Assembly (NCBI RefSeq): GCF_000764665.1
Contig: NZ_JRGM01000129.1
Span: 62,001 to 126,000, forward strand
DNA from: Aeromonas lacus
GTDB taxonomy: Bacteria; Pseudomonadota; Gammaproteobacteria; Enterobacterales; Aeromonadaceae
Direction: 5' to 3'
DNA length: 64,000 bases
The position numbers and the translations under genes are program-made. This document shows, in pieces, positions 54,668 through 56,605 of this stretch. The notes beneath the pieces are model-generated. The model ran no database searches and was not told the origin of the DNA. It saw only the letters and a list, made by a program, of their open reading frames with translations. The stretch's first letter is position 1, and each line of letters begins with the position of its first letter.

Positions 54668-55342
54668 TCAAACTGGCAGGGCAAAATAGCGTTGCAGCAG
54701 GCTGTGGGTGAAATCGATCTTGAGATAGAAACCGCGCGGCAGGGTCATAATCGGTTGACCATCGCGACCGATGGCGCGAGTCAGCGCCTTGTTGTTGGCG
54801 GCCTTGGGGCGCAGCTGCATCACCTGGCCGTGGCGTGCGCTGATCTGCTCCACCTCGCCCAGCACGATCATGTCCATCAGCTCTTCCCAGTCCTGGCGCA
54901 GTAGCTGATCTTCCTCCTCGCTGGGGCTCCACATCAGCGGCATCCCCACCCGCCGCTCGCCAACCGGGATCTCGCGGCTCCCCTCGACCGGGATCCAGAG
55001 CACCCGTGACAGCTTGTTGCGCACGTTGGACTCCTCCCAGCGCTGACCGCTGACGCCGATCAGCGGCGCGACGCAGACAAAGGTGGTTTCCAGTGGTCGG
55101 CCCTGAGGATCGACCGGGATCGTCTTGAGCTCGATCCCGAGATCCGGAAAGTCCTGCTCCGGCTTGCTGCCTGCACTGGCCCCCAGCTGCAGCTCGATCA
55201 ACTGGCCCACCCACCCCTTGTCCCGGCGCAGATCTTTGGGCACCGCCACACCTACCTCGGCGGCCAGCTGCGCCAGCGTGAAGCCTGCCATGGCGTAGGC
55301 ACGGCTCAGCAACTCCTGTTCGGATTGGGGATTGTTTGGCAT
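54668..55342 (-). CDS. mutH: DNA mismatch repair endonuclease MutH
   Basis: A 224-residue type II-like endonuclease that nicks the unmethylated strand at hemimethylated GATC in MutHLS repair. The catalytic Asp-Glu-Lys triad is visible in [15 protein letters not shown]. The start at [11 protein letters not shown] follows GGAG; an ATG four codons earlier is less likely. Its presence implies Dam methylation, consistent with many GATC sites in the region upstream. Confidence 0.96.
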
Positions 55343-56074
55343 GTTTGGCTCCATATTGCTCGGCCTATTCTAACAGGGCAGGATCCCGGGAGGATCGCTG
55401 TTTTTATAACCGATCCTGAGTGGATAAGGGTAAATGGGGATAATTCGGCTGTGTAGGTCTTATGATTATGATTTTAAAGAAATTTGTCTTTTTTATCGAG
55501 CAAGGATATTCAGCCGATCCGGGCCCGAAATAGTTGTCCAAGGGTTTGAGGATGATGTTACACACAGTTATCCACAGAAATCTTGGATAAGTGGCATAAA
55601 GTGGGATGAGTATCTTATATGTTACAAAAAATTGTGAATCCGACCCCATTTTCATCGAGGAAACAGGGCAGATATTGTGCCACTCCTGTGGATAATTTGG
55701 CCTTGGTGGATCTTTAAGCAGTAGAACTTGTTCACAATCATCGTCGCGGATCCTGCGTGAGCAAAACCATGGATCCAGATCCAGTTGTTTGTATTTAACT
55801 GTATGTATAATAAATAAAAATTAGTTTTAACTCTGATCTGTGAGGTGATAGTCTGTTTTTCACTTACAGTTAAAAAGTACTGTATATACCAGCTTGCTCA
55901 CAGGCTTATGCACAGTCTGGGTGGGCAACTTGGTAGAGCAGATCTTCCCGTTTGTTTATAAGTATGTGTGAAATTGAAAGTTATTCATGAACGCCGGGAG
56001 TCACTCCTTGTTTGCTGCCACGAAGTGAATGTGGAACAATCTCTTTATAGATTCAGCCTTTATAAGGTGATCAC
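55343..56074. promoter_or_regulatory. Non-coding mutH-rppH region with DnaA boxes (DARS2-like candidate)
   Basis: A 732-bp, AT-rich stretch with no supported gene. It holds two perfect TTATCCACA-type DnaA boxes (55568-55576 plus; 55687-55695 minus), a third fitting TTATNCACA (55906-55914 plus), near matches at 55419-55427 and 55728-55736, and several GATC sites. In E. coli the DnaA-reactivating sequence DARS2 occupies the same mutH-rppH (nudH) intergenic region, as I recall. Synteny plus boxes suggest the Aeromonas DARS2. It must also contain the mutH and rppH promoters. No IHF or Fis site could be fixed by eye. Confidence 0.6.
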
Positions 56075-56605
56075 GTGATTGATGGCGACGGATTTCGTCC
56101 CAATGTCGGTATCGTGATCTGTAACCGTGAAGGACAGGTGTTGTGGGCTAAACGCTATGGGCAGCACTCCTGGCAGTTTCCGCAGGGGGGGGTTGATGAT
56201 GGTGAAACGCCGGAGCAGGCCATGTATCGCGAGCTGTATGAGGAGATAGGCCTCAAGCCCGAAGATGTGACCATCATGGCCACCAGTCGTAACTGGCTTA
56301 AATACCGTTTACCCAAACGTCTTGTCCGCTGGGACAGTTCACCGGTCTGTATTGGCCAAAAACAAAAATGGTTCCTGTTGCAGCTCAATTCGGGCCGAGA
56401 GTCGCGGATCCAGTTCGGTTGTCATGGTCATCCCGAATTTGACGACTGGCGCTGGGTCAGCTTCTGGTACCCGGTACGCCAGGTCGTCTCGTTCAAGCGG
56501 GAGGTTTACCGCCGGGTCATGAAGGAGTTTGCTCCGCTGGCGATGCCGGCGCCGGCAGTGCAGCAGGTCAACAAGAAGGATGGGCGGCGTAACCGCGCTC
56601 GCTAA
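56075..56605 (+). CDS. rppH: RNA pyrophosphohydrolase RppH
   Basis: A 176-residue Nudix hydrolase removing pyrophosphate from mRNA 5' ends to trigger RNase E decay. The N terminus [26 protein letters not shown] and the Nudix box [22 protein letters not shown] are clear. A GTG start after AAGGTG matches the E. coli protein's start position. It is followed after 14 bp by ptsP. Confidence 0.96.

Follow-up and report, generated by a model that had tools for sequence, protein, structure and literature searches.

A DARS2-like locus between mutH and rppH of Aeromonas lacus that appears to carry two copies of the three-box core

The window analyzed here, a stretch of 64,000 nucleotides from Aeromonas lacus, contains the divergent genes mutH (54668..55354, minus strand) and rppH (56075..56605, plus strand, with a GTG start), each recognized as an open reading frame and by tblastn, with 68% and 73% identity to the E. 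coli mutH and rppH regions respectively. The only uncertainty in the coordinates of the intergenic region between them (55355..56074) is the start of mutH, which is either 55354 or an internal ATG at 55342. A first-pass annotation had described this region as the longest non-coding stretch of the window (732 bp) and as AT-rich, and both descriptions hold: it is the longest stretch without an open reading frame of at least 100 amino acids (720 bp, the second longest being 455 bp), with a GC content of 0.41 versus 0.60 across the 64 kb. Together with roughly 20 bp of the adjoining genes, the extracted region measures 729–744 bp across 37 Aeromonas genomes. Many GATC sites had also been noted; the count is right (11) but a special density is not, since the 64 kb is rich in GATC and 5% of its windows of this size have as many, and GATC enrichment was accordingly rejected as a SeqA signal. 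Two sub-threshold Rfam matches at E ≤ 1, drz-agam-1 and ASdes, were judged to be chance, and a terminator scan of the region found 2 against 0.9 expected.

Three matches to the DnaA box pattern TTATNCACA occur in the 64 kb, against 0.62 expected and with 4 of 100 shuffles reaching three, and all of them lie inside the mutH-rppH stretch; shuffles of the 732-bp stretch itself have a mean of 0.053 matches, and none of 5000 reaches three. The boxes are exactly as first listed, namely TTATCCACA at 55568 (plus strand) and, opposed to it, at 55687 (minus strand), and TTATGCACA at 55906 (plus strand), and the two near boxes are likewise present, TTATCCACT at 55419 (minus strand) and TTGTTCACA at 55728 (plus strand). 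Boxes at 55419 and 55435 were rejected as elements of the site, being poorly conserved in the Aeromonas alignment.

That alignment comprises 37 regions, the window's own among them, and because the genomes are related the counts over it are not independent. The first-pass annotation had made box conservation between Aeromonas species the sequence half of a test of its reading, and on that half the reading stands, as the three full boxes are kept in 36, 37 and 37 of the 37: the distal box II' (55568..55576, plus strand) is identical in 36, box V (55687..55695, minus strand) is identical in all, and core box II (55906..55914, plus strand) matches TTWTNCACA in all. Their spacing is nearly as constant, with 119 bp from II' to V in 34 genomes (118 bp in 3) and 219 bp from V to II in 36 (218 bp in 1). 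The extra box TTGTTCACA (55728..55736, plus strand), which is 41 bp away from box V, is unchanged in all 37; full boxes 41–42 bp from box V were also seen in all three loci labeled f13 and in one of three labeled f16 (L080), and the counterpart in f1g26 is weaker. Mean pairwise identity among the 37 is 0.67 for the region, 0.85 for the classical core and 0.88 for the box V flank at 55703, and reaches 0.94 in a distal module around box II' described below. The highest peak, also 0.94, is the rppH leader at 56026, and parts of the rppH-proximal 125 bp (55950–56074), presumably the rppH promoter and leader, rank near the top of the region in conservation.

DARS2 is regarded as a site on the DNA at which DnaA, the protein that starts replication, is recharged. 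The first-pass annotation had proposed a DARS2-like locus here, noting that E. coli DARS2 lies between the same two genes. A box-for-box alignment bears this out. In the direction from mutH to rppH, E. coli MG1655 has TTATCCACA on the plus strand, TTATCCACA on the minus strand 119 bp on, which we take as box V, and then the core. The counterpart of the E. coli distal box is thus the box at 55568, that of box V is at 55687 and that of core box II at 55906. A DARS core consists of three DnaA boxes, with box I opposed to II and III and with a spacing common to DARS1 and DARS2 (PMC5742627). Using this shared spacing and the reversal of box I (PMC5742627), the E. coli DARS2 core was assigned as TTCTTCACA-ACT-CTATCCACA-GAAAA-GGTGAATAA, and a scan of E. 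coli DARS1 likewise gave spacers of 3 bp and 5 bp. The window has a core of identical design, in register with that of E. coli, on the plus strand at 55894..55928, with III TTGCTCACA, GGC, II TTATGCACA, GTCTG and, on the opposite strand, I GGTGGGCAA; the earlier statement that the boxes are spaced more widely than in the compact E. coli core is thus mistaken, a compact core being present. Its boxes match the consensus at 9/9 (II), 7/9 (III) and 6/9 (I) positions, these being match counts and not affinities. Box I (TTGCCCACC) is therefore degenerate, yet it is conserved, reading GGTGGGCAA in 30 of the 37 Aeromonas genomes; II and I of this classical core are both well conserved, and III, with 8 variants, is less so. 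Gene neighbors and box order make a strong case, on the sequence, that the whole region 55355..56074 is the positional and sequence ortholog of DARS2.

Two other identities were considered. DARS1 is ruled out by position, as a separate DARS1-like site lies upstream of uvrB. The locus datA, a cluster of DnaA boxes that lowers ATP-DnaA, is ruled out by location only, the neighbors here being mutH and rppH. In E. coli, datA lies downstream of glyV-glyX-glyY, between yjeV and queG (PMC10380432).

Box V with the Fis sites FBS2-3 is a criterion of DARS2, and a box V with predicted counterparts of those sites was found here. A perfect Fis consensus match lies beside box V at 55666..55680 (0 mismatches; at most 1 mismatch there in 33 of 37 Aeromonas), and the flank at 55703..55718 (TTGGTGGATCTTTAAG) is the predicted equivalent of the E. 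coli FBS2-3 region, judged by the position of GATCTTT, which lies 22 bp from the start of box V in 35 of 37 Aeromonas and 23 bp from it in E. coli and is also seen in f22 and f11. The genome encodes Fis (71% identity over 98 amino acids). In E. coli, IHF is also required for DARS2. An AT-rich, partly conserved stretch lies where an IHF site would be expected (55793..55827), and its match to the IHF consensus is no better than shuffles; the best match per Aeromonas locus has 1 mismatch in 3 of 37 loci, 2 in 30 and 3 in 4, which is not above mononucleotide shuffles (0.8%, 16.6%, 66.5% and 16.1% at 0, 1, 2 and 3 mismatches). In E. coli the scan did find two sites, 3 bp apart and each with 1 mismatch, a pair that fits the description of IBS1-2 (PMC4245941), the IHF sites located between box V and the core. 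Box V is reported to act in negative feedback (PMC8682772).

The box list of the first-pass annotation overlooked a second core-like module centered on the box at 55568. On the plus strand at 55556..55590, the sequence TGTTACACA-CAG-TTATCCACA-GAAAT-CTTGGATAA has the geometry of the DARS1 and DARS2 cores, with III' and II' separated by 3 bp and I', on the opposite strand, 5 bp further on. Of its 35 positions it shares 28 with the E. coli DARS1 core and 29 with the E. coli distal element; compared with the module, 35-mers of the region match at 9.1 positions on average. The conservation of this distal module ranks 4 of the 688 overlapping 35-bp windows of the region; III' reads TGTTNCACA in 34 of 37 Aeromonas, and its most variable base (18 G, 13 A, 3 T) is the free fifth base of TTATNCACA. 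Summed over three boxes, and again as match counts rather than affinities, consensus matches in the distal module outnumber those in the classical core in 34 of 37 Aeromonas (equal in 2, fewer in 1), with means of 23.8 versus 21.8 of 27. The order is reversed in E. coli (distal 22, classical 24) and in f19 (means of 21.6 and 22.6, with one of seven classical cores missed by the threshold). The p-values of this per-locus scoring cannot fall below 1/61 and also cover the chance that a box is there at all. Aeromonas DARS2 thus appears to carry two copies of the three-box core, and the distal one is predicted to equal or surpass the classical in strength. Helical phasing of the core-to-core distance was rejected by inspection, as the distances, 301–355 bp in loci where both modules reach a score, do not fit one phase.

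The geometry was examined more broadly by scoring DnaA box matches at offsets of -45 to +45 on both strands, or 181 offsets for each anchor box. In 41 regions picked by hand from 99, with the box arrangements already known (11 groups in 10 families, Aeromonas and f1g26 counting as one family and E. coli being placed with f19 by resemblance), the top two offsets from the distal anchor are -12 on the plus strand (6.66 of 9) and +14 on the minus strand (6.49), and the top two from classical box II are identical (7.02 and 6.49) over a background of about 3.5. Four families, f2, f3, f7 and f9 (16 loci), had been left out of the 41 because the arrangement is missing or different there, and in view of such hand-picking the scan was repeated on all 99 loci and averaged within groups. 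The same two offsets remained on top, at 5.93 (-12) and 6.23 (+14) from the distal anchor (85 loci, 14 groups) and at 6.66 and 6.28 from the classical anchor (86 loci, 15 groups; background 3.5), the anchor box being absent in 14 and 13 of the 99 loci respectively; the signal is weakened because some proximal anchors fell on a neighboring box (for example in L046, L054-L057 and L099). These offsets bear on the view that the locus is a titration site whose boxes merely sequester DnaA. Several strong boxes do lie together, and chromosomal titration has been argued for E. coli (PMC12371093), but sequestration needs no fixed orientation or spacing, and the head-to-tail 3-bp and head-to-head 5-bp arrangements are the top two of 181 in both modules; we consider this view very improbable.

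A genome-wide search with the geometry pattern CACANNNTTATNCACANNNNNNNTGGATAA, using the reversed pattern as control, gave three matches in the window's own genome at up to 3 mismatches, namely the distal module, the classical core and, on another contig, a site upstream of uvrB, against none for the control. The third is a DARS1-like core (L108:2433-2467, contig C63) 432 bp upstream of uvrB, which is also the neighborhood of E. coli DARS1 (bioD-uvrB). At up to 2 mismatches, the 37 Aeromonas genomes gave 94 matches and the control none; sorted by sequence and counted by hand, these are 38 distal modules, 36 DARS1-like cores and 20 classical cores. The DARS1-like match is present in 36 of the 37 genomes and adjoins uvrB in all five checked, the window's own included. 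One Aeromonas genome, G029 (L231-L236, 490001-592387), has two copies of the distal module, within a directly duplicated segment that is at least 46.6 kb long and 99.95% identical between copies; the duplication places the second DARS2 copy 55.8 kb away and may be real or an assembly artefact. Outside Aeromonas, 26 genomes searched at up to 3 mismatches gave 135 matches versus 11 for the control by hand count, some of the 135 being one near-palindromic site read on both strands; many are not tied to a locus, and the geometry is therefore not confined to two loci there.

In a collection that represents each species by a single genome, at least 119 contigs have the twin arrangement, and the 80 matches listed are mostly from Enterobacteriaceae and relatives, together with Aeromonas, Oceanimonas, Zobellella and Psychromonas. 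Of 119 such loci, 98 are flanked by recognizable mutH and rppH genes, while within reach of the others there was mutH alone in 16, rppH alone in 2 and neither gene in 3. Since the search pattern itself prescribes 6 of 9 bases in I', CACA in III and 313–343 bp from core to core, the 119 loci are no evidence for those features, and the 6/9 found for I' in 86 of them is merely the pattern's minimum. Left free by the pattern were III', which matches at 7/9 in 80 loci, at 8/9 in 15 and lower in 24, and the distance from II' to box V, which is 117–119 bp in 114 of the 119, the other 5 having no box there. Among 60 further mutH-rppH regions, a core-like triple is missing in 8 of 10 from f7 and in both from f3. 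The f7 regions concerned are L089 and L091-L097, and 7 of the 10 f7 regions lack any full box; a genome-wide search of one f7 genome (G137, L091) found close matches to the core geometry elsewhere, and the site may have relocated.

The rigidity of the II'-to-V distance, over more than 100 bp, exceeds what promoters need, and it speaks against the idea that the boxes mainly regulate transcription of mutH, rppH or both through DnaA and thereby tie mismatch repair and RNA turnover to replication. In favor of that idea, the region does lie between divergent genes, its rppH-proximal 125 bp is in parts as strongly conserved as a promoter and leader would be, and E. coli DnaA regulates transcription from sites upstream of genes (PMC11317965). 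Promoter-like matches in the region are nevertheless at shuffle level (2 found versus 2.2 expected). The same geometry upstream of uvrB is a further argument against it, and a weak one, as uvrB is a reported DnaA-regulated gene of E. coli (PMC11317965). On balance, we regard transcriptional regulation as an unlikely main role.

We are instead confident that the region is the Aeromonas DARS2, with DnaA recharging at the core and a switch at box V and Fis; orthology and spacing are observed, and DnaA binding, ADP release and Fis control would follow by analogy with work in E. coli. ADP-DnaA would bind the core boxes, and DnaA molecules on II and I would meet head to head through their AAA+ domains, loosening ADP; apo-DnaA would then leave and rebind ATP, giving more initiation-competent ATP-DnaA. 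The box V and Fis region between the modules would turn the site on before initiation and off at high ATP-DnaA. Nucleotide exchange activity is likely by homology, and the head-to-head arrangement of I and II is reported to be a hallmark of DARSs and essential for their function (PMC10380432). Counting against the DARS2 reading are the 6/9 match of box I, the absence of an IHF match above chance, the reported dispensability of E. coli boxes IV-VI and a distance from dnaA unlike that in E. coli.

As regards the distal module, a second working core and a docking role seem to us about equally plausible. Both cores have the same orientation, usually lie roughly 300–355 bp apart and flank the Fis and box V hub, and it is tentatively possible, though somewhat short of an even chance, that both would catalyze ADP release, with the dominant core differing by lineage: the proximal in E. 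coli and its relatives, the distal in Aeromonas and only the proximal in f22. Alternatively, and with a chance just under even, the distal module may be a docking or feedback site that supports a single classical core. E. coli DnaA boxes IV-VI, which we take to include the distal box, are reported to be dispensable in a plasmid over-initiation test (PMC4245941), the E. coli distal boxes flanking the central one are weak (7, 9 and 6 of 9 for the three), and in the five f22 loci the central distal box is kept while its flanking boxes are unrecognizable (3–5 and 3–6 of 9), all of which would suit docking. Against docking stand the two flanking offsets, prominent over 99 loci without hand-picking, and the closer consensus match of the distal module in Aeromonas. 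In E. coli, DnaA ChIP-seq gave three DARS2 peaks with coverages of 78, 199 and 213, the last listed with the double box of the distal element and the other two with that of the core (PMC11317965); if the numbering is that of MG1655 version 3, we would place the middle peak closer to box V (48 bp) than to the core (about 150 bp).

The Aeromonas DARS2 itself is the expected ortholog, and what matters is the second module. Published accounts, in the parts available, describe one core; here the geometry occurs twice, throughout the genus and in most of the other examined families that keep the site, and the distal copy in E. coli coincides with the strongest DARS2 peak in the published DnaA ChIP-seq (PMC11317965). 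In the available part of the paper on DARS2 double DnaA boxes, boxes are paired and a second core is not described. Our literature search found no paper on DARS2 or a DnaA-reactivating sequence in Aeromonas, where an earlier mention in figures or supplements, which lay outside the search, is possible, and none linking DARS2 with DnaA box VI. The second module bears on the number of DnaA molecules processed, and the half of DARS2 reported to be dispensable may serve as a reserve or as a second core under regulation. The geometry search also yields a candidate DARS1 for Aeromonas, which makes DnaA recharging testable outside Enterobacteriaceae.

DARS2-homologous sequences have been published for V. 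cholerae, Shewanella denitrificans, Yersinia, Photorhabdus and others (PMC8682772); Aeromonas is missing from the legend of Fig. 8 there, and the available part of that paper makes no mention of a second core. Aeromonas resembles E. coli DARS2 in its neighbors, in the order of distal box, box V with its Fis region and core, in the 119 bp from distal box to V and in the III-3-II-5-I spacing of the core. It differs in having 219 rather than 197 bp from V to core II, a degenerate core box I with a distal module nearer the consensus, the 55728 box, which is absent from E. coli, and no IHF match above chance in place of two matches 3 bp apart. The chromosomal position, for which a conserved distance from oriC would be expected of a DARS2, differs as well: in six single-contig Aeromonas genomes, with dnaA standing in for oriC and the arms split half-way, the distance from dnaA is 0.24–0.30 of a replichore for the locus and 0.86–0.94 for the DARS1-like site, the two being on different arms in four of the six and on the same arm in two, whereas E. 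coli DARS2 lies at 0.41, measured from oriC, and DARS1 at 0.66, on different arms. The likeness to E. coli DARS1 (bioD-uvrB), finally, is one of core sequence and spacing, the 28 of 35 positions shared with the Aeromonas distal module being identically spaced; it is not one of locus, as Aeromonas has a DARS1-like site of its own upstream of uvrB.
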